From an uncultured Clostridium sp. (GTDB taxonomy: Bacteria > Bacillota > Clostridia > Lachnospirales > Lachnospiraceae), in NCBI GenBank assembly GCA_958349075.1, contig CATWBR010000067.1:1-13656 (forward strand): DNA of 13,656 bases, written 5' to 3'. Position 1 is the stretch's first letter; each line of letters starts with the position of its first letter. The position numbers and the translations under genes were made by a program. Shown here piece after piece: positions 188-13,656 of this stretch. Under the pieces are notes generated by a model. The model saw only the letters and a list, made by a program, of their open reading frames with translations, did no database searches and was not told where the DNA came from.

Positions 188-613
188 ATGGAGATAAGTT
201 TAAGGGAGGCGAAGCGATTGGACAGAATATGTAAAAGAAATCTGAAATTGAGCGACTACAATATATCTCAGGCCAAGTATAATGAGTTAAAGTATTTTTG
301 TATGCAGTACGATGAAAAACGCAGGGAGTTACATAACGGCCTTGGACTCAGAGCGGTTGTCTATGACGGAATGCCGAAAGGAAATTCACTGGGGAACCCG
401 ACCGAGCGGACCGCAATCCGTAGAACAATACTGCAGAGCGATTTGGAACTAATCGAGCAGACGGCAATGGAGGCGGACAGAAGCATCTATAAGTGGCTGA
501 TGAAAAATATAACGGACGGCATTCCTTATGAATGTCTGGATGTGCCGAAGGGAAGAAAACAGTTTTATGAGTCGCGCAGGTATTTTTTTTACCTGCTGGC
601 ACAAAAAAGATAA
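188..613 (+). CDS. Probable phage-type transcriptional regulator (RinA/sigma-like HTH protein)
   Basis: This 141-residue basic protein probably binds DNA and controls the tail operon. The N-terminal half is a helical region with LDRICKRNLKL and YNELKYFCMQY; a middle segment carries PTERTAIRR followed by an acidic helix (SDLELIEQTAMEADRSIY). The C-terminus (about residues 104-140) looks like a helix-turn-helix, with VPKGRKQFY-ESRRYFFYLL as a putative recognition helix. This layout is typical of small late-gene activators and sigma-region-4-like proteins of Firmicutes phages, such as the RinA or ArpU type; the exact family is uncertain. ATG 188 is the first start after an in-frame stop at 164; the Shine-Dalgarno site is weak (GAGAGG, about 165-170, rather far). 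It stands alone and is separated from the tail operon by an intrinsic terminator at 711-749. A regulator directly ahead of tail genes is also the arrangement of headless tail loci. The coding region is well supported and the function moderately so. Confidence 0.65.
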   Translation: MEISLREAKRLDRICKRNLKLSDYNISQAKYNELKYFCMQYDEKRRELHNGLGLRAVVYDGMPKGNSLGNPTERTAIRRTILQSDLELIEQTAMEADRSIYKWLMKNITDGIPYECLDVPKGRKQFYESRRYFFYLLAQKR

Positions 614-640
614 AAGTGGATAACTGAGAGGGGGTACTTC

Positions 641-660
641 CATGATAATATAGTATCATG
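641..660 (+). promoter_or_regulatory. Inverted repeat overlapping a -10-like box, possible activator-dependent promoter
   Basis: CATGATA (641-647) and TATCATG (654-660) are perfect 7-nt inverted arms around a 6-nt centre. Inside lies TATAGT (649-654), a good -10 match. The place of a -35 box (about 626-631, GAGAGG) does not match TTGACA, as expected for a promoter needing an activator. It could equally be a regulator's operator or a chance palindrome. Its position just after the regulator gene and before the tail operon favours a regulatory role. Confidence 0.35.
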
Positions 661-710
661 CAATAAGCGGACAGGAAATCTGACTGCTGTATATGTATTC
701 TTCCTTTTTG

Positions 711-749
711 AAACGGCTGCCGGAGCATAAATAATCCGGCGGCCGTTTT
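711..749 (+). terminator. Intrinsic (Rho-independent) terminator
   Basis: The left arm AAACGGCTGCCGGA (711-724) pairs with TCCGGCGGCCGTTT (735-748), giving a 14-bp stem with one T·G wobble and a 10-nt loop, ending in TTTT (746-749). The stem is very GC-rich. The U tract is short, so efficiency is uncertain. It ends transcription from the regulator gene, or from any promoter near 649, before the tail operon, so operon expression needs a promoter after 749 or read-through. Confidence 0.8.
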
Positions 750-788
750 GGTTTCACGGCGGCGGTAAGGAATTATGTTGCCAAAGCG

Positions 789-826
789 CTCCGCCCCAGG
801 CGGAGAATACCGCACACGGGATTCTC
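789..826 (+). promoter_or_regulatory. Leader RNA with two overlapping hairpins
   Basis: CTCCGCC (789-795) pairs perfectly with GGCGGAG (799-805) over a CCA loop. GAGAAT (803-808) pairs with ATTCTC (821-826), with an inner CCG/CGG stem (810-812 with 817-819). Both hairpins need the bases GAG at 803-805, so they cannot both form fully. They sit between the terminator and the first tail gene, in what would be its 5' leader. A role as an attenuator or antitermination element is only a guess. Confidence 0.3.
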
Positions 827-925
827 TCTTCCAGGAACAAATACGGTGGGAGAGGGGAGTTACCGGTATAGACAGAGGTAAGTCCGGTATTGCAAGACTT
901 AAGGCTTGGCCAAAGGAGGTGAATC

Positions 926-1345
926 ATGCTCGACGATATTTTGAATGCAGCTTCCAGGCGGTTAAATGAACTGTTTGGGGAAAATTACACAATTTATACA
1001 GATAAGACAGGACAAGAGTTTCAGAAGCCCTGTTTTTTTGTACGAATTACGGAAACATCGGAACGGCCGATGATAGGCCGGCGGTATTTCCGCAGGACAG
1101 GAATCGCGGTTCAGTATCTTTCTAATGAAAATTCCAGCCGGGAAGAAAACCGCGTTTTGGATATTTTAATGGAAGGTATGGAGAGTGTCACGCTGGAAAA
1201 TGGGCGGCAGTTGACTGGGACGAATCGAAAAAGCGGAACAGAGGAAGGAAGTGTAACCTTCTATGTCAATTATGACCAATTCATTGTGAAGGAAAAAGAA
1301 GAAACGCCAATGGAGGAGTTGGAGATGAAAGGGGGAATTGTGTGA
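926..1345 (+). CDS. Phage tail terminator family protein
   Basis: This 139-residue soluble protein is the first gene of the tail operon. Tail terminators form a ring that ends tube and sheath growth and, in phages, joins tail to head. What is seen: an N-terminal helix (LDDILNAASRRLNELFG), a KPCFFVRI strand typical of this small alpha/beta fold, and a YFRRTGIAVQYLS strand pair followed by a helix and a C-terminal VTFYVNYDQFIV strand. Size and position just upstream of the small linker gene and sheath match the XkdI slot of PBSX-like tails and the clostridial 'tail terminator family' (DUF6838-like). ATG 926 follows an excellent AAAGGAGGTG site. The end overlaps the next gene by 4 nt. No head-completion gene precedes it. 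The family call rests on fold pattern and context. Confidence 0.7.
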   Translation: MLDDILNAASRRLNELFGENYTIYTDKTGQEFQKPCFFVRITETSERPMIGRRYFRRTGIAVQYLSNENSSREENRVLDILMEGMESVTLENGRQLTGTNRKSGTEEGSVTFYVNYDQFIVKEKEETPMEELEMKGGIV

Positions 1346-1536
1346 GAGCGGAAAAAGGTAAGGAGACTGCCGTGGAATCTGAACAGGCGGTATTTACAAA
1401 AAAACAGCTTTTAGCATCATCCAGATATAAGGGAAAGGGTGATTTGCTGGAGGCTCTTCTGGAAGACGGAAAAATGTACAGTTTCCAGGAAACAGACGAA
1501 ACAATTGATTTTTATATGAAAGGAAAGGTGAATTAG
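1342..1536 (+). CDS. Small conserved tail-operon protein (XkdJ position)
   Basis: A 64-residue protein starting at GTG 1342, which overlaps the stop of the preceding gene in a GTGA arrangement, so translation is probably coupled; an AAAGGGGG site lies just upstream. The first 17 residues are polar and look disordered. The rest (FTKKQLLASSRYKGKGDLL, then ALLEDGKMYSFQE and DFYMKGKV) matches a recurring small phage pattern: a 'F-x-K-x-Q-L-L-x-S-x-R-Y' helix followed by 'D-L-L-x-A-L-L'. Such proteins are common in tail modules of Firmicutes phages, but no biochemical role is established that I can name. It sits where xkdJ sits in PBSX, between terminator and sheath, so a part in tail assembly is likely. 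The coding call is good; the function is unknown. Confidence 0.7.
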   Translation: MRAEKGKETAVESEQAVFTKKQLLASSRYKGKGDLLEALLEDGKMYSFQETDETIDFYMKGKVN

Positions 1537-2835
1537 ATGTTAGGAGGCGGAAGTTTTACATCCCAGAACAAGACACTTCCGGGAGCTTATATTAATTTTG
1601 TAAGTGCAGCCCGGGCTAATGCAGTTTTATCGGAGAGAGGTATCGTGACAGTTCCCATGATTCTTGACTGGGGTCCGGAAAAAACGGTTTTTGAAGTAAC
1701 GAACGGAGAGTTTCAGACAAATGGGCAGAAGTTATTCGGATATTCCTATGACGCGCCTCAGATGCTTAATCTAAGGGAGTTGTTTGCCAATGCGACGAAA
1801 GGTATTTTCTACCGTCTGAACAGCGGCGTTAAGGCGGCCAATGACTTTGCAACAGCCAAATACAGCGGGGTAAGAGGCAATGATGTAAGGATTGTAATTG
1901 CCGTTAATGTGGAGGATGAACAGAAGTACGATGTAACGACTATGCTGGATAGAAGCGAAGTAGATCGTCAGACGGTAAGCAAGGCAGCTGATCTTGCGGG
2001 AAATGACTATGTTGATTTTAAAGCGGATGCCGCTCTTGCAGCGACGGCCGGAACTCCCCTTACAGGAGGAACAAATGGAGAGGTTCCGACGGGCTCCGAG
2101 CATTCAGCCTATCTGGCGGCGATCGAGCCGTATACCGCACACATTTTATGCTGTCCAGTGACGGACGAGCCCACGAAGAGTCTCTATACGGCCTTTACAA
2201 AACGGATGCGTGAGAATGCAGGAGTGAAGTTCCAGACGGTCGTTTTCCAAAAAAGTGATGCGGACTACGAAGGCGTCATTTCCGTAGAAAACACGGCAAA
2301 AGAGCTGGAGCAGGGACTTGTATACTGGACGGCAGGAGCCGAGGCCGCATGCGCGGTGAATAAGACCAATGAAAACAGGGTGTATAACGGAGAATATACG
2401 GTTAATACGTCATATACACAGACCCAGCTTGCGGATGGAATCAAATCTGGAAAATTTATGTTTCACAAGGTTGGGGACCAGGTGCGCGTTCTGATGGATA
2501 TCAATACGCTGACCTCCGTCACTGCCGAAAAGAATGAGGAATTTGCCGGTAACCAGACAATCAGGGTACTGGACCAGATCGGAAACGATATTGCATCCAT
2601 GTTCAATACTAAATATCTGGGGAGTATTCCAAATGACAATGCGGGGCGTATCAGCCTTTGGAATGATATCGTGACATACAATCAGAAACTGGCTAAAATC
2701 AGAGCGATCGAAGAGATTAATGCGGAGCAGATTACGGTGGAAAAAGGAGAAAGTAAACGGGCAGTTATCGTGACCAATCCGGTTACTCCGATTAACTGTA
2801 TGAGCCAGTTGTATATGACTGTAATAATTGATTAA
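1537..2835 (+). CDS. xkdK: Contractile tail sheath protein (XkdK family)
   Basis: This 432-residue protein is the sheath subunit that stacks around the tube and contracts to drive it through the target envelope. The N-terminus (GGGSFTSQNKTLPGAYINF, residues 3-21) is the hallmark opening of PBSX-type sheaths; this arm links neighbouring subunits. The middle includes the characteristic LTGGTNG motif (about 175-181) that precedes the conserved core domain (about 185-320). The C-terminal domain ends in a strand (MSQLYMTVIID) that completes the subunit-to-subunit mesh. Length is normal for the PBSX/diffocin class and shorter than T4 gp18. ATG 1537 follows AGGAAAGGTG, which overlaps the end of the previous gene; the tube gene follows 16 nt after the stop, as expected since the two are made together in large amounts. 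The call is close to certain. Confidence 0.95.
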   Translation: MLGGGSFTSQNKTLPGAYINFVSAARANAVLSERGIVTVPMILDWGPEKTVFEVTNGEFQTNGQKLFGYSYDAPQMLNLRELFANATKGIFYRLNSGVKAANDFATAKYSGVRGNDVRIVIAVNVEDEQKYDVTTMLDRSEVDRQTVSKAADLAGNDYVDFKADAALAATAGTPLTGGTNGEVPTGSEHSAYLAAIEPYTAHILCCPVTDEPTKSLYTAFTKRMRENAGVKFQTVVFQKSDADYEGVISVENTAKELEQGLVYWTAGAEAACAVNKTNENRVYNGEYTVNTSYTQTQLADGIKSGKFMFHKVGDQVRVLMDINTLTSVTAEKNEEFAGNQTIRVLDQIGNDIASMFNTKYLGSIPNDNAGRISLWNDIVTYNQKLAKIRAIEEINAEQITVEKGESKRAVIVTNPVTPINCMSQLYMTVIID

Positions 2836-2851
2836 GAAGGGAGCAAATTTT

Positions 2852-3319
2852 ATGCAGACTATGAATGCATGGGATGCGGTCAGTGCATCCAAGGCGGAGT
2901 GTTTTGTGACGATTGAAGGAAACCGTTACAACTTTATGCAGGCCATCAATCTGGAGGCCAAAATTGAGAAGACAAAAACAGAGGTGCCGATTCTCGGCAG
3001 ATCAATGAAAGGAAACAAGACGGTAGGACTCAAGGGTACCGGTTCTGCCACCTTCCATTTTAACACCAGTATTTTCTGGAAAATTCTGTATGATTTCCAG
3101 AAGAGCGGTAAAGACATCTATTTTGATATCCAGGTTACCAATGAGGATCCGGCTTCCAATGTTGGAAGGCAGACGGTGATTCTGAAGGACTGCAACCTGG
3201 ACGGCGGAACAATCGCCAAGTTTGATGCGGATGCGGAGTATCTGGAGGATGAATTTGACTTTACCTTTGAGAGCTGGGAAATGCCGGAGACATTCGGCAG
3301 TCTTGAAGGAATGATATAA
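2852..3319 (+). CDS. xkdM: Tail tube protein (XkdM family)
   Basis: This 155-residue protein forms the inner tail tube, stacked as hexamer rings inside the sheath. It is a beta-rich protein of the usual tube size, with the family-typical NAWDAVSASKAECFV start, an I-E-G-N-R-Y strand, KTEVPILGRSMKGNK at about residues 40-54 (a loop conserved in XkdM tubes), a GTGSATFHFNTSIF strand pair, and a closing FDFTFESWEMPETF. I place the start at ATG 2852, 8 nt after an AAGAAGGGAG site. A longer frame opens at TTG 2828 but overlaps the sheath stop, and the ribosome site lies inside that extension, so it is rejected. Known Xkd tails keep the order sheath, tube, chaperone, tape measure, as here. Confidence 0.93.
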   Translation: MQTMNAWDAVSASKAECFVTIEGNRYNFMQAINLEAKIEKTKTEVPILGRSMKGNKTVGLKGTGSATFHFNTSIFWKILYDFQKSGKDIYFDIQVTNEDPASNVGRQTVILKDCNLDGGTIAKFDADAEYLEDEFDFTFESWEMPETFGSLEGMI

Positions 3320-3340
3320 AGAAAGAGAGGATAAGGATTA

Positions 3341-3769
3341 ATGAGTAATTTAAGTTGTTTTCTGTCACAGAATGCAGTGCCAGTGGAAAATAAAAAGTTT
3401 GTGGTTTCAAAAAGGTTTATTGGGGCGGATAAGAAACCGGTAGAATGGGAGATTTGTCCGATTTCATCCTCGGAGGATGAACTGCTCAGAAAAGAATGCA
3501 CAAAGCGGGTTCCGGTTCCGGGTAAAAGAGGGCAGTATACACAGGAAACAGACTATAATCTTTATCTCGGAAAACTTGCGTCCCGTTCTACGGTTTTTCC
3601 GAATCTGAATGATAAAGAACTGCAGGATTCTTATCATGCTATGGGGGCGGACGCCCTGTTAAAAACGATGCTTACGGCGGGAGAATATGCCGGTTATCTG
3701 GAGAAAATCCAGCAGGTAAACGGATTTGATGTGCCGATGGACGACATCGTTGAAGAAGCAAAAAACTGA
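3341..3769 (+). CDS. xkdN: Tail assembly chaperone, short form (XkdN, gpG-like)
   Basis: This 142-residue protein is the in-frame product of the tail chaperone gene. Such proteins coat the tape measure before the tube polymerises around it and are absent from the finished tail. Visible features are a beta-containing N-terminal region (FVVSKRF, VEWEICPISSSEDELLRKE) and a helical C-terminal half with VFPNLNDKELQDSYHAMGADALLKTML, which matches the XkdN family (Phage_TAC_5-like). Length is normal. It lies 21 nt after the tube gene with an AGAGAGG site upstream of ATG 3341. Its last two sense codons lie in a canonical slippery heptamer and are followed at once by TGA, so a fraction of ribosomes should shift into the -1 frame and make the longer form. 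Confidence 0.9.
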   Translation: MSNLSCFLSQNAVPVENKKFVVSKRFIGADKKPVEWEICPISSSEDELLRKECTKRVPVPGKRGQYTQETDYNLYLGKLASRSTVFPNLNDKELQDSYHAMGADALLKTMLTAGEYAGYLEKIQQVNGFDVPMDDIVEEAKN

Positions 3770-3951
3770 TAGAGGGAGACGATACCGAGGCCAACATCGC
3801 CTATTATTGTCTCCACAAACTGCATAAATGGCCTCATGAGTTTCTGGAATTAGAACGGTATGAAAAGGCCTTTGTAATAGCCGCCGTTGAGTTAAAGCTG
3901 GAAAATGATAAAAAGGAAGCAAAGAAGGCGAAAGCTATGAGGAGGAGATAG
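3341..3951 (+). CDS. Tail assembly chaperone, long -1 frameshift form (gpGT-like)
   Basis: The -1 frame relative to the chaperone is open only from 3754 to the TAG at 3949-3951 and has no start codon apart from a late ATG near 3937, so it can be expressed only by frameshifting. Slippage at 3760-3766 would add 61 residues (LIEGDDTEANIAYYCLHKL, then HKWPHEFLELERYEKAFVIA, then a Lys-rich helix) to give a protein of about 203 residues. The extension is helical, charged and ends Arg-rich (KAKAMRRR), like the T domain of lambda gpGT, which recruits tail subunits to the tape measure. Xu, Hendrix and Duda described conserved -1 frameshifts in this position across tailed phages. The coding sense of the extension, the position before the tape measure and the slippery site agree strongly. 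Confidence 0.88.
3760..3766 (+). promoter_or_regulatory. -1 ribosomal frameshift slippery site A AAA AAC
   Basis: The zero frame reads GCA|AAA|AAC|TGA, so the heptamer A|AAA|AAC is in the exact phase for tandem -1 slippage (X XXY YYZ). The stop codon TGA follows at once. After slippage the frame continues CTG ATA GAG and stays open for 61 codons to 3951. This sets the ratio of short to long tail chaperone. Confidence 0.88.
3775..3814 (+). promoter_or_regulatory. Putative frameshift-stimulating stem-loop
   Basis: GGAGACGAT (3775-3783) pairs with ATTGTCTCC (3806-3814): nine base pairs including one G·U. The stem begins 8 nt after the slippery heptamer, within the usual 5-9 nt distance. The 22-nt loop holds a small inner stem, AGGC (3788-3791) with GCCT (3799-3802). 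Location and spacing fit a stimulatory element; whether it forms a pseudoknot was not determined. Confidence 0.6.
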
Positions 3952-4167
3952 ATTATTGTTTTAATAAGTTGGACAGCCCCCGGGATGAGTGCCTCTTTAG
4001 ACGGGGCAATCATAAGATATAATGACGCTTCTGCCAACTTTTGATTGATACCCATGAGAGCCGGTAACAAACAGCAGTAAAACAGGAAACATAGTTGGAA
4101 CGTACCTCCAGGGACGTTCCAACTAAAAGAACGATTAAAAAATATACAGGAAAGGAGGAATACCAAA
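3952..4167 (+). other. Structured non-coding gap before the tape measure gene
   Basis: This 216-nt stretch carries no supported gene, which is unusual in an operon whose other genes touch or overlap. It contains nested inverted repeats: AAGTTGG (3966-3972) with CCAACTT (4034-4040), enclosing GCCCC (3976-3980) with GGGGC (4003-4007), then a long perfect hairpin at 4092-4125. The hexamers AGTTGG (3967, 4093) and CCAACT (4034, 4119) each occur twice and any left copy can pair with any later right copy. A 19-codon frame starting at ATG 3985 has no ribosome site. The 3' end holds the tape measure's ribosome site AAAGGAGG (4151-4158). Confidence 0.45.
4092..4125 (+). repeat. Perfect 12-bp inverted repeat (RNA hairpin)
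   Basis: TAGTTGGAACGT (4092-4103) and ACGTTCCAACTA (4114-4125) are perfect complements around a 10-nt loop that can form a further CC/GG pair. No T-tract follows (AAAAGAACG), so it is not a normal intrinsic terminator. It ends 26 nt before the tape measure's ribosome binding site. Possible roles are mRNA processing or stability, or limiting tape measure translation relative to the abundant upstream proteins. Confidence 0.7.
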
Positions 4168-6306
4168 TTGGCAACAGTTCAAGCATCAATACAACAGTAT
4201 ACGGGGATGTCTGCGACTTTAAATACAATTACCGGGGATATGCGCGCAGTGATTAGTTCGTTCAAGGCAATGCAGATTGCCTCATCCGACGGTTTGAACA
4301 TAATGGCTATCCAGGCGGGAAGAGCCGAACTTGTAAGCACGGGAACAGAAGTAAAAAGAATCGGCCAGTCGGTTGATTCGGCTTCAAAAAAGATGGATAC
4401 CTTTGACGATAAAATCAGTCAGGGGAAGAATGAAACGGTTTTGCTTGGGGCAAGGCTCAAGGATATGCTGAAACACTTTGACAGTAAAAAGGCAATTAAG
4501 ATGGGCGTTGATTTTGTTACCGATGCATTGTCCCTGCAGAGTGTCCAGCAACAGGCGGAAACAAAGCTTGGAACAGTAATGCAGCAGCGCATGGGAGCGT
4601 CACCAGAGGATATCCAGTCAATAAAAAACATGGCCTCCGCACAGCAGCAGCTTGGTGTAATCGGAGATGAAGTACAGCTCTCCGGTGCACAGCAGTTAGC
4701 TACATATCTGGGGTCCTCAGACGCTCTGGGCACTCTGCTCCCCGCGATGAATAACCTGGCGGTGAGTCAAAACGGAGTCGGCGTCAGCAGCAAGGACATG
4801 ATCAGTGTCGGAAGCAAAATGGGACAGGCCATGCAGGGGCAGACGAGTGTCTTAACCGAAATGAGACTCGGATTTTCAGAGGCCCAGGCTCAGATATTAC
4901 AGTGCGGCAATGAGCAGGAGCGTGCCGCCACGCTGGCACAGATTATTACAGATAATATAGGAAACATGAATGCCGTCATGGCCGGAACACCTCAGGGCCA
5001 GATTCAGCAAATGAAAAACGCATGGGGAGAGATAAAAGAAATGGTCGGCGCCCAGGTATTTCCGGCGGTGCAGGGATTTTTTGATGTACTCAAATCCCAC
5101 TTGCCCCAGGCACAGAGCCTGTTCATGGGTCTGGCCGGAGGAATTAGTGTCATTATAACGGTGATAAGTCTGCTGGCCGATGGACTGGGGAGCGTTGTTG
5201 AGTTCTTCCAGAGCGGATGGACCATATTTGAACCGATTATATGGGGAATTGTGGCAGCTCTTGGGGTGTATCTGCTGGTCACAGAAGGTGTGAAACTTGC
5301 ACAGATGGCGGGAGCCGCCGTTATGTCGGCGTATAAAGCTGCACAGACATTTCTATCGATTGGATTTGGCGTTTTGACAGGCAGTACTACAGCAGCCGGT
5401 GCAGCGGCTGCAACTTTTAATTCCGCTCTGCTTGCCAGTCCGATAACGTGGATTATTATAGGGATTATTGCATTGGTTGCGATATTATTTGCGGCGGTGG
5501 CGGCATTTAATCACTTTACCGGAGCATCCGTCAGTGCGGCGGGAATTATCGCCGCGGTATTCGGAGTGCTGGGAGCACATATTTATAATACATTTATTGT
5601 TCCTCTATGGAATATGATTGCAGCATTTATCAATTTTTTCTATAACGTATGGAACGAGCCGATCGCGTCTATAAAACTTTTGTTTTATGATCTGGCTTTA
5701 ACTGTAATCGGATATGTAGCAAACATGGCACATGCAATAGAAGATGTTATTAACAATATTCCTGGTATTGAAATAGATATTGCCGCCGGCCTGGATAAGT
5801 TTAAAAGCCAAATTGAATCGGCAGCGGAAAAAGTGAAAAGTGAATCGGAATGGAAAGAGCTTGTAGAGCAAAAGGAATTCCTGAGTTATGAGGAAGCTGC
5901 CGGGAATGCCTATCAAAAGGGTAAAGACTTTAAATTCCCTGGCATGGACTTGTTTGACAGTAGTAATGATTCTCCATTTGATCCGGGTCTACAACCCTCT
6001 TTTGGGGGTGACGGCTGGAATAGTTATAATCCGGATATGAGTGATATTAAGAATAACACGGGAAATACCGCCGCCAGTACCGCTGCGATGGCAAATACGG
6101 TGGATGTAATGGATGAAGACCTGAAATATATGCGGGATGCCGCCGAACAGGAAATTATCAACCGTTTCACACTGGCAGAATTAAAGCTGGATGTTAAAAA
6201 TAATAATACGCTGACCAAGAAAGCAGATTTTGGCGATATGGCATTTTATATGCAGACGCTCACCGAAGAGTTTGTGGCAGCCTATGCGGAAGGAGATCAC
6301 ATTTAA
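4168..6306 (+). CDS. Tail tape measure protein
   Basis: This 712-residue protein sets tail length and lies inside the tube. Residues 1-110 are helical and polar; residues about 110-310 are Gln/Ala/Met-rich helix, with a GVGVSSKDMISVGSKMGQAM segment and PQGQIQQMKNAWGEIKE (about 275-291), a pattern typical of tape measures. Several strongly hydrophobic segments follow (about 316-345, 353-372, 423-447, 455-475, and weaker ones to about 518), as in tape measures that may enter the target membrane. The C-terminal 150 residues are hydrophilic, with a low-complexity Asp/Pro/Gly/Asn stretch (about 595-640). The start is TTG 4168, 9 nt after GGAGG. It is much shorter than PBSX XkdO (about 1330 residues), predicting a tail near 100 nm from the usual 0.15 nm per residue. 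The function is clear from context and composition. Confidence 0.9.
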   Translation: MATVQASIQQYTGMSATLNTITGDMRAVISSFKAMQIASSDGLNIMAIQAGRAELVSTGTEVKRIGQSVDSASKKMDTFDDKISQGKNETVLLGARLKDMLKHFDSKKAIKMGVDFVTDALSLQSVQQQAETKLGTVMQQRMGASPEDIQSIKNMASAQQQLGVIGDEVQLSGAQQLATYLGSSDALGTLLPAMNNLAVSQNGVGVSSKDMISVGSKMGQAMQGQTSVLTEMRLGFSEAQAQILQCGNEQERAATLAQIITDNIGNMNAVMAGTPQGQIQQMKNAWGEIKEMVGAQVFPAVQGFFDVLKSHLPQAQSLFMGLAGGISVIITVISLLADGLGSVVEFFQSGWTIFEPIIWGIVAALGVYLLVTEGVKLAQMAGAAVMSAYKAAQTFLSIGFGVLTGSTTAAGAAAATFNSALLASPITWIIIGIIALVAILFAAVAAFNHFTGASVSAAGIIAAVFGVLGAHIYNTFIVPLWNMIAAFINFFYNVWNEPIASIKLLFYDLALTVIGYVANMAHAIEDVINNIPGIEIDIAAGLDKFKSQIESAAEKVKSESEWKELVEQKEFLSYEEAAGNAYQKGKDFKFPGMDLFDSSNDSPFDPGLQPSFGGDGWNSYNPDMSDIKNNTGNTAASTAAMANTVDVMDEDLKYMRDAAEQEIINRFTLAELKLDVKNNNTLTKKADFGDMAFYMQTLTEEFVAAYAEGDHI

Positions 6307-6962
6307 TGTATGAGGTATATTTAGATGATATGAGGCTCCCCATTACGCCGCAGAAGATACAGATCAAGTACGGAAATCAAAATAAGACGGTAGATCTGAT
6401 AAACGGAGAGGAATTTAATATCATCCGCCCTCCGGGGCTTTGTGAGATTTCATTGGATGCGGTTATCCCCCAGTCAGATTACCCTTTTGCCTTCTGGGAC
6501 GGAGCGGGAGATGCGGAGGAGTTTATCGAACGTTTGCGGGAGCTTAAGGAAGCACAGTCGGAATTTGAATTTATCGTCATCCGGGAGGGGCCGGGACGAC
6601 AGAATTTCTTTGATACAAATATGGATGTGACGCTGGAGGACTACAAAATTTCGGATGATGCGAAGGAGGGAGTGGATCTGCTGGTTTCATTGACATTGAA
6701 AGAATATCAGCACTACGGAACCAAAATCGTGAATTTCATGATCATGCCGGAACAGCCGCCGCAGGCTGCGGAACCGGAGGAGGACCGGGCAGTACCGGAG
6801 ACGCCGAAGGCCTATACGGTCCAAGGCGGAGACAGTCTCTGGAAAATTGCGAAAAAGACGTTGGGAGATGGAAGCCGCTGGTCTGAAATCTATAACCTGA
6901 ATACGGACAAAATCAGCAATCCGGATTTAATTTATCCCGGTCAGGTTCTGACACTGCCATAG
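6306..6962 (+). CDS. xkdP: LysM-containing baseplate protein (XkdP family)
   Basis: This 218-residue protein belongs to the baseplate hub region. The N-terminal domain (about residues 1-147, starting YEVYLDDMRLPITPQKI) is the conserved XkdP part, containing the family-typical FWDGAGDAEEFIERLRELKE stretch (64-83). A Pro/Glu-rich linker (about 148-168) leads to a C-terminal LysM domain (169-217: YTVQGGDSLWKIAKK, then NPDLIYPGQVLTLP). LysM domains bind N-acetylglucosamine polymers; in tails they help the tail tip contact peptidoglycan, or act structurally as in T4 gp53. The ATG overlaps the tape measure stop by 1 nt (TAATG), so translation is coupled, with GGAGAT upstream. Domain content and length are normal and nothing appears missing. 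Confidence 0.92.
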   Translation: MYEVYLDDMRLPITPQKIQIKYGNQNKTVDLINGEEFNIIRPPGLCEISLDAVIPQSDYPFAFWDGAGDAEEFIERLRELKEAQSEFEFIVIREGPGRQNFFDTNMDVTLEDYKISDDAKEGVDLLVSLTLKEYQHYGTKIVNFMIMPEQPPQAAEPEEDRAVPETPKAYTVQGGDSLWKIAKKTLGDGSRWSEIYNLNTDKISNPDLIYPGQVLTLP

Positions 6963-6975
6963 AAGGAGGGGACAG

Positions 6976-7935
6976 ATGGAAACAGCAATCTATATTCAGA
7001 ACGGCCAGACCGTGTATGCTCCTGTGGTAGAAGGGGATATCACCTGGGAAACTGAGCGGAAAGGACAGCCGGGAAAGCTTTCCTTCACGGTAATTGCGGA
7101 CGATAAATTAAAGATAGAGGAAGGAAATGCCATACGGATGGATGTGGACGGTAAGCCGGTGTTTTTCGGATTTTTATTTGAGCGCTCCGGAAGCAGGGAG
7201 AGGGAGGTCAAAATTACTGCCTATGATCAGCTCAGATATCTGAAAAACACAGATGATTACAGCTACACGAATCTGACGGCGGGAGAGCTGATTGCACAGA
7301 TCGCAGGCGACTATTATCTGCAAACCGGAGAGCTGGAAGACACAGGATACAAGATTGATTCCCGAACGGAAAAAAATAAGACACTTTTCGATATCATATT
7401 AAACGCATTGGATCTGACCATGATGGGGACAGGAAAAATGTTTGTATTGTATGACGATGTAGGAAAGCTGACCCTGAAAAGCATGGACAATATGAAGCTG
7501 AATCTGATGATTTGCGAGAAAAGCGCTCAGGATTTTGATTTTAAATCCAGTATTGACAGTAATACTTACAACCAGATCGAACTGTACCGGGAAGGCAATG
7601 AAACAAAGGAACGGGAAGTTCATATGGTTCAGGACATAGAGAATATTAAAAAATGGGGGCTTCTGCGGAAATATGAATCTTTCGGGGAAAAGGTAAATGG
7701 ACTTCAGAAGGCGGAAGTTTCCCTTTCGCTGTATAACCGGCCCTCCAGGAGCCTTTCAATAAAGGACGCGTTCGGGGATATCCGTGTCCGTGCCGGCTGT
7801 CAGATACCTACATTTTTAAAAGCCGGGGATCAGACCCTTCAAAATTATATGATAGTGGAATCCGTGAAACATAAATTCAGCCAGGGATTTCATTCGATGG
7901 ATTTAACACTGAAAGGAGCTGCTTTTAATGGCTGA
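6976..7935 (+). CDS. xkdQ: Baseplate hub protein (XkdQ family, gp27/gpD-like)
   Basis: This 319-residue protein is the hub ring on which the tube starts and to which the spike attaches (T4 gp27, P2 gpD class). Seen in sequence: a beta-rich N-terminus (METAIYIQNGQTVYAPVVEGDITWETER) with the recurring start 'beta strand-WETER', PGKLSFTVI, and the family-typical VKITAYDQLRYLKNTDDY (79-96), an 'AYDQLRYL' motif shared by XkdQ hubs. Later come FDFKSSIDSNTYNQIELYR, a WGLLRKYES segment near residue 228, and a C-terminal MDLTLKGAAFN strand. Length is standard for XkdQ. ATG 6976 is preceded by AGAAGGAGGGG. The last 8 nt overlap the next gene. Confidence 0.92.
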   Translation: METAIYIQNGQTVYAPVVEGDITWETERKGQPGKLSFTVIADDKLKIEEGNAIRMDVDGKPVFFGFLFERSGSREREVKITAYDQLRYLKNTDDYSYTNLTAGELIAQIAGDYYLQTGELEDTGYKIDSRTEKNKTLFDIILNALDLTMMGTGKMFVLYDDVGKLTLKSMDNMKLNLMICEKSAQDFDFKSSIDSNTYNQIELYREGNETKEREVHMVQDIENIKKWGLLRKYESFGEKVNGLQKAEVSLSLYNRPSRSLSIKDAFGDIRVRAGCQIPTFLKAGDQTLQNYMIVESVKHKFSQGFHSMDLTLKGAAFNG

Positions 7936-8242
7936 TACGGAATGGATTGATAATATGAGACAAATTATGACGAGGGCGGTGGATGCCGGAGAACCCTGTG
8001 ATATCCTTCAGGGCGAAGTGGTTTCCAATACTCCGCTGTCGGTCCGTCTTAATCAGAAGATCACGCTGTCGGGAACTCAGCTTTTTCTGCCGCAATATTT
8101 GACGGATTACGTGGTAGAGATGGACATTCCCGGAGTTGGAGGTGTGCCGGTGACGGTAAAAAGTGCGTTGAAGACGGGAGAATCGGTCTTTCTGCTTCAA
8201 AAAAGAGGCGGTCAGCAATATCTGATTATGGCGCGCCGGTGA
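7928..8242 (+). CDS. xkdR: DUF2577 family tail protein (XkdR-like, OB-fold-like)
   Basis: This 104-residue protein overlaps the hub gene by 8 nt. ATG 7928 lies downstream of a GAAAGGAG site. The N-terminal 20 residues form a helix (ADTEWIDNMRQIMTRAVD). The rest is a small beta barrel: DILQGEVVSNTPLSVRLNQKITL (strands 1-2), QLFLPQYLTDY, VPVTVKSALKTGESVFLLQKRGGQQYLIMAR. 'G-x-V-x-S-x-x-P-L-x-V-R-L' followed by 'L-K-x-G-E-x-V-x-L-L' is the DUF2577 pattern, which has the look of an OB-fold spike or hub-associated domain. By position it takes the place of P2 gpV or T4 gp5 between hub and gp25-like protein, but it lacks the long spike; the needle function is an inference. The family call is good. 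Confidence 0.85.
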   Translation: MADTEWIDNMRQIMTRAVDAGEPCDILQGEVVSNTPLSVRLNQKITLSGTQLFLPQYLTDYVVEMDIPGVGGVPVTVKSALKTGESVFLLQKRGGQQYLIMARR

Positions 8243-8259
8243 CGGAAAGGAGGAGGTTT

Positions 8260-8655
8260 ATGCTGCCGGATTCGGGAAGTATGTTAAAACAGGACTTTAA
8301 AATAGTTGAACGGCCGTCTAAAACATATCGGTTTCAGGCGGAGAAGATTACGGGATATGCAGATGGCCCTGAGGCCGTAAGGCAGGCAATTTTCTGTATC
8401 TTAAATACAGAACGTTTTGACTACCTGATTTACAGTTGGAATTACGGAATTGAGCTGAAGGGATTGTTTGGCAAACCGATGGAGCTTGTTAAGTCGAAAC
8501 TGAAAAAAAGGATCAGGGAAGCATTGATGCAGGATGACAGAATCCGGGGCGTGGATGCTTTTTCGTTTGAAACCAGCGGCCGGAAATTGTCGGCCACTTT
8601 TCATGTACATACAAAGTATGGCGATGTTGTGGCCGCAAAGGAGGTGAAAGTTTGA
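8260..8655 (+). CDS. xkdS: gp25-like baseplate/sheath-initiation protein (DUF2634, XkdS)
   Basis: This 131-residue protein belongs to the DUF2634/XkdS group, related to T4 gp25 and P2 gpW, which joins baseplate wedges and nucleates sheath assembly. Residues TYRFQAEKITGYADGPEAVRQAI include the family 'G-x-x-D-G-x-E-A-x-x-Q-A-I' pattern, followed by LNTERFDYLIYSWNYGIEL, the 'R-F-x-Y-x-I-Y-x-x-x-Y-G' signature, and a C-terminal beta hairpin (LSATFHVHTKYGDV). I set the start at ATG 8260 because AAGGAGGAGG (8247-8256) lies just upstream; a GTG at 8239 overlapping the previous stop opens the same frame, but its seven extra codons contain that ribosome site. The stop overlaps the next gene's start. 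Confidence 0.92.
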   Translation: MLPDSGSMLKQDFKIVERPSKTYRFQAEKITGYADGPEAVRQAIFCILNTERFDYLIYSWNYGIELKGLFGKPMELVKSKLKKRIREALMQDDRIRGVDAFSFETSGRKLSATFHVHTKYGDVVAAKEVKV

Positions 8656-9686
8656 TGTTTGAGGACATAACTTATGAAAAAATATTAAAGCGCATGCTGG
8701 ACAGGATACCCGAGTCCTTTGATAAACGCGAAGGCTCGATATTGTATGACGCGTTGGCGCCGTCCGCGGCGGAAATGCAGATTCTTTACATCAGCCTGGA
8801 CAATGTGCTGAGAGAAGCGTTTGGAGACACAGCCGATCGGGAATTTCTGATAAAGCGCGCCGCAGAATATGGCATCATTCCGAACAAAGCCCGGGCAGCC
8901 GAGTGGCGGGGTGTATTTACTCCGGATGGAATTGAAGTGGAAACAGGCGAGCGGTTCAGCCGAGGGAAAATGAATTTCCGGGTAACGGGAAAGCTGGACG
9001 ACGGGGGATACCGTCTGATATGTGAGAGTGCCGGGGCAGCAGGCAATGACGGCGCCGGTGCCATGATCCCGATTAATTATATTGCGGGACTGGAGCAGGC
9101 ACAGCTTACGGAACTTCTTATTCCGGGAACGGACGAGGAGGATACGGAGGATTTCAGAAGCAGGTATCTGGCGGCGGTCCGTAAACCGTCCACCAGTGGA
9201 AACAGATATGACTATTACAACTGGGCCATGGAGTGCAGCGGAGTGGGGGCGGCAAAGATTTTTCCTCTCTCAGACGGACCCGGAACCGTGAAGATCGTGA
9301 TTGCCAATGAGGAGAGAAAAGGAGCCGACTCGGCGCTTGTAAACTCTGTAAAGGAACATATTGAGGAACTCAGGCCGATTGGCGCAACGGTTACCGTGGC
9401 TTCGGCATCCGAGAAAGAAATACATGTGGCGGCGGGAATACGGCTGAAAAAGGGCCTGTACCTGGGCTCGGTTCAGGATGCGATAAGCAGGGCTCTGAGC
9501 GGATATCTGGAGAGGAATGCATTTGAAATTACTTATGTGAGCCTGGCAAAGGTGGGCAGTTTGCTGCTGGATGTTGAAGGCGTGGAAGACTTTTCAGATT
9601 TAATGCTCAATGGGGAGGCAGGGAACGTATTGCTTCAAAAAGAAGAAATCGCGGTAGCCGGAACCATAAGCCTGGAGGTGATGTAG
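8655..9686 (+). CDS. xkdT: Baseplate J-like wedge protein (XkdT family)
   Basis: This 343-residue protein is the baseplate wedge (P2 gpJ, T4 gp6-like), which encircles the hub and transmits the contraction signal. The N-terminus (MFEDITYEKILKRMLDRIP) is followed by the 'D-K-R-E-G-S-I-x-Y-D-A-L-A-P-x-A-x-E' motif typical of XkdT, then REFLIKRAAEYGI, an EVETGERFSRGKMNFRV strand region, the AAGNDGAGAMIPI turn (from about residue 130), and LIPGTDEEDTEDFRSRYLAAVRKPSTSGN, the standard baseplate-J signature with conserved acidic and R-x-R-Y residues. Length is normal. GGAGG (8640-8644) precedes the start. ATG 8655 overlaps the XkdS stop by one base (TGATG); the in-frame TTG at 8652 is a possible alternative adding one residue. 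Its TAG overlaps the fibre's GTG start. Confidence 0.93.
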   Translation: MFEDITYEKILKRMLDRIPESFDKREGSILYDALAPSAAEMQILYISLDNVLREAFGDTADREFLIKRAAEYGIIPNKARAAEWRGVFTPDGIEVETGERFSRGKMNFRVTGKLDDGGYRLICESAGAAGNDGAGAMIPINYIAGLEQAQLTELLIPGTDEEDTEDFRSRYLAAVRKPSTSGNRYDYYNWAMECSGVGAAKIFPLSDGPGTVKIVIANEERKGADSALVNSVKEHIEELRPIGATVTVASASEKEIHVAAGIRLKKGLYLGSVQDAISRALSGYLERNAFEITYVSLAKVGSLLLDVEGVEDFSDLMLNGEAGNVLLQKEEIAVAGTISLEVM

Positions 9687-12570: not shown

Positions 12571-13266
12571 ATGTATGGAGTTGGAAAGTACGGTAAGTTA
12601 AAGTATGCTCTGGAAGATCTGGAACCGGAAATACAGGAGGAATATTTTACAGACTTATCGCTTTATGTTCCCCCCTTCATTTCCTCAATAAGAGAAATAA
12701 AAGAAATATACCAGACCCAGGGCAGGGAGATAGGGCTGCTGCGATACTATCTGTACGATTTGCTGGCTCAGTGCTTCGTGTCCACTTCTACCTGGGGAAT
12801 TACGAGGTGGGAGGAACTGCTGGGAATTTCGACAAATTTGAAGTTATCATATGAACAGCGGCGTGAAATTGTCCTGGCTAAAATAAGGGGACAGGGAACG
12901 ACAACAAAACAGATGCTTAAAAATACCGCAGAGTCATTCAGCGGAGGTGAGGTTGATGTGGTGGAGGACAATGAGAACCACCGCTTTATTATCCGGTTTA
13001 TAGGAATTAAAGGAATACCCAGGAATATGCAGGCATTTGTCGCTATGCTGGAAGATATTAAGCCTGCGCACCTTGAATACAGGTTTGAGTACACCTATAC
13101 AACATGGAACAGTTTAAAAATCTTCACCTGGAATGAACTGCTGCCAAAGACCTGGGATGAAATCAGGATAATGCGTGAAGTGGAGTATGAGAACGACGAT
13201 TGGAAGAGCCTGGGACTTTATACCTGGGACATGATTTACTGGAAAACATGGGAAGAAATTAAATAG
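12571..13266 (+). CDS. xkdU: DUF2313/YmfQ-like baseplate protein (XkdU, P2 gpI-like) with Trp-repeat tail
   Basis: This 231-residue protein corresponds to P2 gpI and PBSX XkdU, at the periphery of the baseplate, where fibres attach. Residues 1-175 are the family domain: VPPFISSIREIKEIYQTQG, LRYYLYDLLAQCFVSTSTWGITRWEELLGI, LSYEQRREIVLAKIRGQGTTTKQML (about 92-116, a strong signature), and IKPAHLEYRFEY. Residues 176-231 are an added tail with tryptophans at 179, 187, 195, 211, 219 and 227, all on an 8-residue grid (W-x-x-[LI]). The family is often shorter than this. ATG 12571 lies 2 nt after the fibre stop, with AAGGGGGTG inside the fibre's end. The fibre C-terminus carries the same TW-x-x-L motif, which hints at a fibre or adaptor contact; that is an inference. 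Confidence 0.85.
   Translation: MYGVGKYGKLKYALEDLEPEIQEEYFTDLSLYVPPFISSIREIKEIYQTQGREIGLLRYYLYDLLAQCFVSTSTWGITRWEELLGISTNLKLSYEQRREIVLAKIRGQGTTTKQMLKNTAESFSGGEVDVVEDNENHRFIIRFIGIKGIPRNMQAFVAMLEDIKPAHLEYRFEYTYTTWNSLKIFTWNELLPKTWDEIRIMREVEYENDDWKSLGLYTWDMIYWKTWEEIK
13096..13263 (+). repeat. Tandem 8-residue tryptophan repeat in XkdU-like C-terminus
   Basis: Residues 176-231 carry [TD]-W-x-x-[LI] at Trp 179, 187, 195, 211, 219 and 227. The spacing is 8 throughout, with one degenerate slot at 203 (residues MREVEYEN). The unit is 24 bp, but the DNA copies have diverged strongly, so selection appears to act on the protein. Confidence 0.75.
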
Positions 13267-13276
13267 GAGGTAATTT

Positions 13277-13656
13277 ATGCAGTACACAACAAATTATAAC
13301 TTGAAAAAACCGGAAGGAGCCGATCCGGTAAATATTCAGGACTTTAATGATAATGCAGATAGTCTGGATACAGAACTGAAAAAAAGGGTAGCGTCATCGG
13401 GCGGTGATATTTCAAATACAAAAATTGCGACAGCAGATAGTATCACAACAGAATTTCCCGTCCCCGCCGCAGGAGATACGCCAAAAGCGTTCCTCGGCAA
13501 GATGAAGAAGTTTGCTGAGGACTTTAAAAATCTGAAAACAGGACTTTTAACCATCGGAATGCTGGTAAATAACTGTACAACGAACAATGCAAACCTGCCG
13601 CTGAGCGCTGCGCAGGGGAAGGTTTTGATGGATTTGTATACTCAGTTAAATGGCGA
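13277..13656 (+). CDS. Second tail fibre-like or tail-tip protein (partial, cut by window end)
   Basis: The frame opens at ATG 13277 after TAGGAGGTAA (13264-13273) and runs open to the window end (126 codons so far). The start MQYTTNYNLKKPEGADPVNIQDFNDN is a very common opening of Firmicutes phage tail fibre or 'tail-tip' proteins, in which 'Y-N-L-x-K-P-E-G-x-D-x-V-N-I-x-D-F-N-x-N' is followed by a helix (DSLDTELKKR). A typical 'NLPLSAAQGKVLMDLYTQLN' fibre coiled-coil segment follows near residues 106-125. It lies 10 nt after the gpI-like gene, where P2 and PBSX place their fibres, so it may be a second fibre, an adaptor or a fibre-associated protein. Domains beyond the window are unknown. 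Confidence 0.8.
   Translation, partial: MQYTTNYNLKKPEGADPVNIQDFNDNADSLDTELKKRVASSGGDISNTKIATADSITTEFPVPAAGDTPKAFLGKMKKFAEDFKNLKTGLLTIGMLVNNCTTNNANLPLSAAQGKVLMDLYTQLNG

Follow-up and report, generated by a model that had tools for sequence, protein, structure and literature searches.

The window, a 13,656-nucleotide stretch of DNA from an uncultured Clostridium sp., was analysed by its list of open reading frames (ORFs) and by scans against Pfam and PHROG families. It probably belongs to an R-type tailocin, a headless phage tail-like bacteriocin, with a shufflon in which a tyrosine recombinase is predicted to invert many fibre tips; both inversion and killing are inferred. The forward strand holds a PBSX-type contractile tail operon in which every ORF is open. 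The sequence gives good support for a tailocin from a member of the Clostridia; killing is a predicted function. A sequence-only reading had called the locus a probable R-type tailocin, and the call gained support from the contractile tail and baseplate set without any head gene seen, from the locus and lysis genes of the closest relative, from low ratios of nonsynonymous to synonymous substitution (dN/dS) and from the absence of an SPP1-type portal gene in the draft genome of that relative. In that relative, Clostridium transplantifaecale, a tyrosine recombinase gene lies within an array of sites in both directions which bound in-frame cassettes. The possible signs of inversion are static traces only: contig breaks, many tips on one constant half, and two tips with exchanged roles in related loci. 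By comparison with the relative, the array would extend beyond the end of the window, and its tips presumably bind receptors.

In the window the regulator directly precedes the tail terminator, and no capsid, portal or terminase gene was recognised. The sequence-only reading had placed nothing except control sequence between a regulator ending at 613 and a terminator starting at 926; its coordinates were right, and no recognisable head gene was found in the gap. The sole forward ORF of at least 60 amino acids starting there (775-969) gave no Pfam or PHROG match. It had also noted that a myovirus prophage should hold head genes in that space; the sheath relatives agreed with it, so that the headless junction looks like more than chance. 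The sheath scan yielded 17 relatives among 35 matched genome-contig stretches and 48 of 51 in IMG/VR, together 65 loci, compared by tblastn only apart from those named individually. Seven of the 65, not the closest seven, were read by eye (L002, L063, L018, L019, L023, L034 and L027; sheath identity 63-72%), and all showed about 9 kb of terminase-, portal-, scaffold- and capsid-like ORFs before the same terminator. When ten of these head-module ORFs from six loci were sampled by family search, nine belonged to terminase, portal or capsid families, and the tenth, a capsid-like ORF of L063 (6974-8095), had no family match.

Relatives of the regulator were found in 22 of 299 genomes sampled from the family, and regulator regions were taken from 11 genomes; ORFs were read in G001 (C. 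transplantifaecale), G162, G028, G017 and G034, and the other six were compared by tblastn and phrog_2 only. By eye, terminase-, portal- and further head-like ORFs directly follow the regulator in G162 and G017 and appear from about 3 kb on in G028, and phrog_2 terminase matches lie about 0.4-3.2 kb from the regulator in G162, G028, G017 and G192. Relatives of the regulator in several full phages sit shortly before terminase genes. G034 (L097) shares with the window the direct succession of regulator and terminator, and its locus continues to holin-like and peptidase-like ORFs, named by eye, without head genes; this reading covered 20 kb with only about 0.3 kb upstream of the regulator. The short contig L032 shows the same headless junction. 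In both loci an ORF of the gap (L097 18801-19016, minus strand; L032 3507-3821) resembles the first 44 or 71 of the 170 positions of the capsid-scaffold family PF06810, with E values of 2e-6 and 2.8e-4, neither of which reaches the curated cut-off. These truncated scaffold-like ORFs may be fossils left by the loss of a head module, and no such remnant is present in the window.

As a terminase marker, phrog_2 had no match in 14 of 30 sheath-relative records, although six of these (L063, L018, L019, L023, L034 and L027) carry terminase-like ORFs by eye, a reading supported by Pfam in the three phrog_2-silent records sampled (L018, L063 and L023). Because the family misses the terminases of some relatives, its silence is weak evidence, and a portal search was therefore used instead. 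The SPP1-type portal, the one portal family searched genome-wide, was absent from the C. transplantifaecale draft and from G034 and present in 7/7 comparison genomes. In C. transplantifaecale phrog_2 gave one weak match (E 4e-4).

Among the 65 loci, only that of C. transplantifaecale Marseille-P8228 (L001), a member of class Clostridia in the NCBI taxonomy, gave DNA alignments longer than 200 bases, at 87-90% identity; no near-DNA match to the window was found in phage records. Its genome has one sheath match and the same regulator-terminator junction as the window. Annotation of the flanks for head genes, integrase and lysis genes, a check proposed in the sequence-only reading, was carried out on this relative. 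Upstream of the regulator stand an XRE repressor (PF12844), an ORF whose matches are all to uncharacterised PHROGs, a DUF4352-like ORF and a tRNA-Arg gene. Downstream of the shufflon, on contig C6, a hemolysin/XhlA-like protein, a holin (PF16079, E 5e-24) and an amidase (Amidase_2, E 1.6e-27) precede host genes such as recJ; these lysis genes lie outside the window. No head gene was seen on either side of the locus, and the only integrase-family gene was the recombinase inside the tip array. The span from repressor to amidase is about 20.8 kb by summed coordinates. Between the window and the relative, all 15 of 15 genes or gene parts compared had dN/dS of 0.008-0.30 with dS of 0.12-0.59, from simple Nei-Gojobori counts on one pair with no significance test, and no broken tail gene was seen in either. 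Since dN/dS is low in all genes compared, the headless operon looks maintained under purifying selection.

Past the second fibre gene, contig C4 of the relative contains the repeated word AAATGGCGA and a gene for a 340-residue tyrosine recombinase (PF00589, E 6e-33), whose nearest solved structures are XerA, an XerC-like protein and XerD. The protein keeps the R, K, HxxR, H and Y positions which form the catalytic motif of tyrosine recombinases. C4 ends exactly at a copy of AAATGGCGA, and C6 bears seven further cassettes. The two contigs probably meet there, because the last 127 nucleotides of C4 are identical to the end of C6; short-read assemblers leave overlaps of this kind where the assembly path branches. 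The 5.7 Mb assembly has 47 copies of AAATGGCGA, of which 13 are in the ends of C4 and C6 and represent 12 distinct sites, one site lying in the overlap of both contig ends. A control word with the AAATGGCGA pattern reversed occurs 117 times, so AAATGGCGA is not rare as such and its clustering is what counts. The stretch L094 of the relative holds six copies against a shuffle mean of 0.22, although one of the six falls in the LysM gene by chance. Of the 12 sites, the three that lie between the tail genes and the recombinase have the same direction as the tail operon, and the other nine have the opposite direction. The 11 distinct cassettes occur in both orientations, and in 11/11 the N-G-[D/E] frame stays open for 54-100 codons and is the longest of the three frames. 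No longer consensus was found: only the 9-bp core is invariant in the 12 sites, with a C at -5 in 10 of them.

The window is tied to this array by its own end. Its last nine bases are AAATGGCGA, the only copy it contains, and the DNA alignment to the relative, where alone the second fibre gene is completed, reaches that last base. A random cut as the cause of the window end was considered and is unlikely, as the end falls on the last base of that single copy. With the fibre protein of the relative as query, 457 proteins were found, and the following results come from the best 120 of the 457. Among the matches listed, four proteins (P0130-P0133) are identical to the window over the 126-residue constant half, bear four different tips and diverge at the site; the P0133 tip shares 60% identity over 78 residues with a silent C. 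transplantifaecale cassette (C6:272214). Two others (P0121 and P0123) have a constant half identical to that of the relative. The conserved block of a 24-row alignment ends at Gly126. For tip clustering, 92 of the 120 proteins, which lacked LNG at the expected place, were left out and 28 were kept. These contained six multi-member constant-half clusters; in five (10, 4, 4, 2 and 2 members; 22 proteins) no detected tip recurs among the members, and in the sixth (P0147, three members) the same tip is found throughout. Among the matches listed, there are four tip families that are each found with two of these constant-half types, and a further family links the sixth cluster with P0224. The constant half of the tip fibre was not found in phage records. 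In IMG/VR the exact site context gave no match, and a looser pattern gave nine stretches, two of which (L154 and L156) were checked and had no recombinase.

Related modules were present in prophages and viral contigs. A prophage on a 6.93 Mb contig of G047 carries terminase and portal genes, a related fibre (43-47%) and then a 56% identical recombinase, with four sites of core AGTGATTT in both orientations. A piece of this genome (L142; G047:C1:1231000-1240000) and the viral record L122 hold the same two tips with joined and silent roles exchanged and the silent one inverted, at identities of 85% over 93 residues and 81% over 37. L121 shows three AGTGATTT-type sites and a 53% identical recombinase. 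A related constant half is present in five viral loci, of which L120, L123 and L124 end at or a few bases from the homologous site, which suggests that such shufflons may truncate viral contigs. A third word, TAAATGATAATTTA, was found in four copies and both orientations around a 33% identical recombinase in the human faecal phage record L147 (MT835621.1). Of the recombinase rows with 1,150 bases or more, 37 of 116 have a longest contig of 1,150-1,500 bases; for the regulator, in a list of 118 of 120 values, the figure is 11 of 98 rows. This difference is a weak sign and is confounded by gene length. A scan of IMG/VR for the recombinase by back-translated words gave 29 stretches and no relative, and it missed the 53% homologue of L121.

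On this anatomy, a phage with its late regulator before the head genes would have lost the head module, leaving regulator and tail joined under a repressor. Upon induction contractile tails would be made and the cell lysed by the holin and amidase whose genes were seen in the relative; the released tails are predicted to punch the membrane of sensitive neighbours and kill them. The XerD-like recombinase, encoded in the relative beyond the extent of the window, would cross over at AAATGGCGA, and the resulting inversion would place one of about 11 tip cassettes in frame behind the Asn-Gly of the constant half that starts at 13277. With a single inversion between the fibre site and any site facing the other way, the cassette there would be joined to the constant half and the previous tip silenced; the remaining cassettes would take two inversions. 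This scheme is proposed because of the anatomy of the array and the analogy with the Rin shufflon (PMC6109161). A population would then release tails with differing target specificities. Tailocins are known for narrow targets, and shuffling of about 11 tips, if true, would let one clone reach many strains and keep up with targets that become resistant, with no need of horizontal transfer. The module would also offer a ready-made natural collection of fibre tips, all attached at the same residue. It raises the testable question of whether one induced culture gives several specificities, and whether tip choice is random or selected.

Several observations weigh against an inverting, multi-tip tailocin. 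The array lies outside the window and was read from the relative, pieced from two draft contigs, and tip A (201 nt) appears twice, once at each end of the C4 array, a duplication that may reflect mixed assembly. A close copy of the constant half was present only in C. transplantifaecale among the 299 and 395 genomes searched, and the G034 tailocin has no shufflon in the 20 kb read. Ten database proteins have constant halves like that of C. transplantifaecale, but their tips match none of its 11 cassettes, so repertoires differ between strains. Two short tips (P0126, 16 amino acids; P0137, 18 amino acids) are too short to cluster and may be cut by contig ends. For the exchanged tips, the silent L142 copy is shorter and matches over only 37 residues, and no recombinase was found in the examined stretch of L122; L146, one of two faecal phage records inspected, has no repeated word around its recombinase. 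The structure model of a tip had a mean predicted local distance difference test score of 47.9, too low for a confident fold or a fold search. As to SOS-type induction, the relative has its XRE repressor upstream, and five simple patterns detected no LexA-like box. The difference in repertoires speaks for the explanation that tips vary without active inversion, the array being a store of acquired or relic tips and the variety coming from slow recombination between strains. The constant halves of such strains are near-identical, four tip families each stand on two constant-half types, and fibre exchange between strains has been reported for Pectobacterium tailocins (PMC13195805). Slow recombination is nonetheless unlikely given an intact recombinase inside the array, exact short sites facing both ways, 11/11 cassettes open in the same frame, the breaks at a site both in the window and in two contigs from a single strain, and the exchange of joined and silent tips in related viral loci.

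The loss of the head module could also have been accidental, the locus then being a decaying prophage remnant without function. The sheath relatives read are complete phages by gene content and the two other headless loci retain truncated scaffold-like fossils, as such decay would leave, but the intact tail genes, the low dN/dS at appreciable dS, the retained lysis cassette and the existence of two further headless loci (G034 and L032) make this very unlikely. It is highly improbable that the locus is a complete or satellite phage with head genes elsewhere, or a PBSX-like particle packaging host DNA: the weak phrog_2 match in C. transplantifaecale, the little that near silence of this family proves and the coverage of one portal family leave some room for it, whereas the SPP1-type portal is missing from the two headless genomes and present in the seven others, and PBSX has terminase, portal and capsid genes of its own. 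An extracellular contractile injection system delivering a protein effector, in place of puncture killing, would likewise be headless, contractile and of low dN/dS, and a secreted-looking PF00545 ribonuclease gene lies near the lysis genes of the relative. Its probability is very small, as families and gene order are those of PBSX-type phage tails and the lysis cassette fits tailocins; an AAA+ ATPase, a marker of these systems, was absent among the ORFs scanned, where no targeted search was made for it.

By family names, the window has Xkd-type tail families in common with PBSX-like phage tails, and the tail genes of PBSX follow the same order. The diffocins of Clostridioides difficile resemble the window as a clostridial contractile tail cluster without a phage capsid, and they are released by lysis (PMC6088184). 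The sequence-only reading had likened the locus to diffocins, which holds for the kind of gene content; the window sheath is much closer to other phage-type sheaths, such as PDB 3hxl (DSY3957; E 8e-87), than to the diffocin sheath CD1363 (E 2.7e-8), to which it is only remotely alike, and by this sheath comparison the locus is not closely related in sequence to that of C. difficile. The accessible text of the diffocin source has no mention of a tip shufflon (PMC6088184). Killing by puncture is an established tailocin mechanism (PMC6088184, PMC10538166). Gram-positive tailocin prophages tend to retain capsid genes (PMC10538166), and the loci described here differ in this respect.

The Ein protein of carotovoricin is reportedly a serine invertase encoded beside the fibre gene, with two fibre forms; the recombinase of the relative is of the tyrosine family. 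Carotovoricin Er of Pectobacterium is also a tailocin in which the fibre, and hence the killing spectrum, is altered by DNA inversion (PMC13195805, PMC12090994, PMC10598620). Its host is Gram-negative, whereas the relative of the window has an XerD-like tyrosine recombinase and about 11 tips. In xenorhabdicin tailocins the fibre region is inverted between sister strains, and the locus as described lacks an invertase gene, unlike the present array with its recombinase inside; fibre inversion has been postulated for Pantoea as well (PMC13280938). The Rin shufflon of Bifidobacterium prophages shares an XerD-like recombinase without an arm domain, short asymmetric sites (11 bp; here 9 bp) and an N-terminal constant half with tips that can be exchanged; there a constant half of 168 residues is joined to tips of 95-100 residues, and several orientations were seen in reads (PMC6109161). 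It differs in belonging to complete phages of another host phylum, with five tips and another site sequence (PMC6109161), whereas the present locus is probably a headless tailocin. Fibre inversion in tailocins is thus known, as are tyrosine-recombinase tip shufflons in prophages. A tailocin with a multi-tip tyrosine-recombinase shufflon was not reported in the literature searched, which included few subscription papers, so that prior notice is possible. The chances stand about even that this is the first multi-specificity tailocin, one clone arming headless tails with up to about 11 receptor-binding tips by continuous recombinase action at a 9-bp Asn-Gly-coding site, through a module common to gut prophages with other site sequences at the same protein position.

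Features of the window with coordinates, strand and supporting evidence
Feature	Position	Strand	Evidence
Phage late-type regulator	188..613	+	phrog_11237 E 6e-29; weak phrog_248 'transcriptional activator' 8.5e-5
Gap at expected place of head genes, without recognisable gene	614..925		ORF list, Pfam/PHROG scans
Tail terminator	926..1345	+	PF20765 E 1.8e-28
Small conserved tail ORF	1342..1536	+	phrog_966 E 1e-17
Contractile tail sheath	1537..2835	+	PF04984, PF17482, PF17481, PF22671; PDB 3hxl E 8e-87; CD1363 8v3t E 2.7e-8
Tail tube	2852..3319	+	PF09393 E 4.8e-51
XkdN-like tail assembly chaperone	3341..3769	+	PF08890 E 3.3e-45
Likely -1 frameshift extension of chaperone, 64-residue -1 frame	3760..3951	+	slippery A AAA AAC at 3760-3766
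Tape measure, 712 amino acids	4168..6306	+	phrog_1068 E 8.6e-98
LysM tail/baseplate protein	6306..6962	+	PF01476, phrog_380
Baseplate hub, YQBQ-like	6976..7935	+	PF24032 E 6e-107
DUF2577 protein	7928..8242	+	PF10844 E 2.4e-19
gp25-like sheath initiator	8239..8655	+	PF10934 E 7e-31
Baseplate J	8652..9686	+	PF04865 E 2.5e-56
Long fibre, 960 amino acids	9686..12568	+	phrog_13589, phrog_10316 tail fiber; no Pfam family
Baseplate Gp48/I-like protein	12571..13266	+	PF10076 E 1e-34
Second (exchangeable-tip) fibre, constant N-terminal half, cut by window end	13277..13656	+	PF22337; 24-row alignment; identical half in P0130-P0133
First crossover site AAATGGCGA of the putative tip shufflon, codes N-G-D/E	13648..13656	+	last nine bases of window

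The sequence-only reading had described the contractile set as full and intact. All the genes which it listed are open, but the second fibre gene is cut by the end of the window, and the tail set is therefore incomplete inside it. Its mention of a distinctive fibre was vague and missed the tip shufflon; the distinctive part appears to be this shufflon, whose first site ends the window. In the chaperone gene the heptamer A AAA AAC is in phase and the -1 frame is open to 3951, and the identical heptamer and -1 frame are found in C. transplantifaecale. The second part of the chaperone is likely made by programmed -1 frameshift, which is usual for tail chaperones. A promoter scan found two candidates against a shuffle mean of 2.0.

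Some minor features were also observed. The tRNA-Arg gene upstream of the locus in the relative (L095 3509-3582) has its 3' end facing the tailocin, as at a prophage attachment site, and no exact copy of at least 11 nucleotides of this gene or its 3' flank was found in the C6 stretch. The ribonuclease gene (PF00545) close to the lysis genes of the relative lies on the minus strand at L139 12545-13057 and has a lipoprotein-like start by eye. In the gene of the 960-residue fibre, the region 10439-10978 has no DNA alignment to C. transplantifaecale, while both flanks align at 87-90%.

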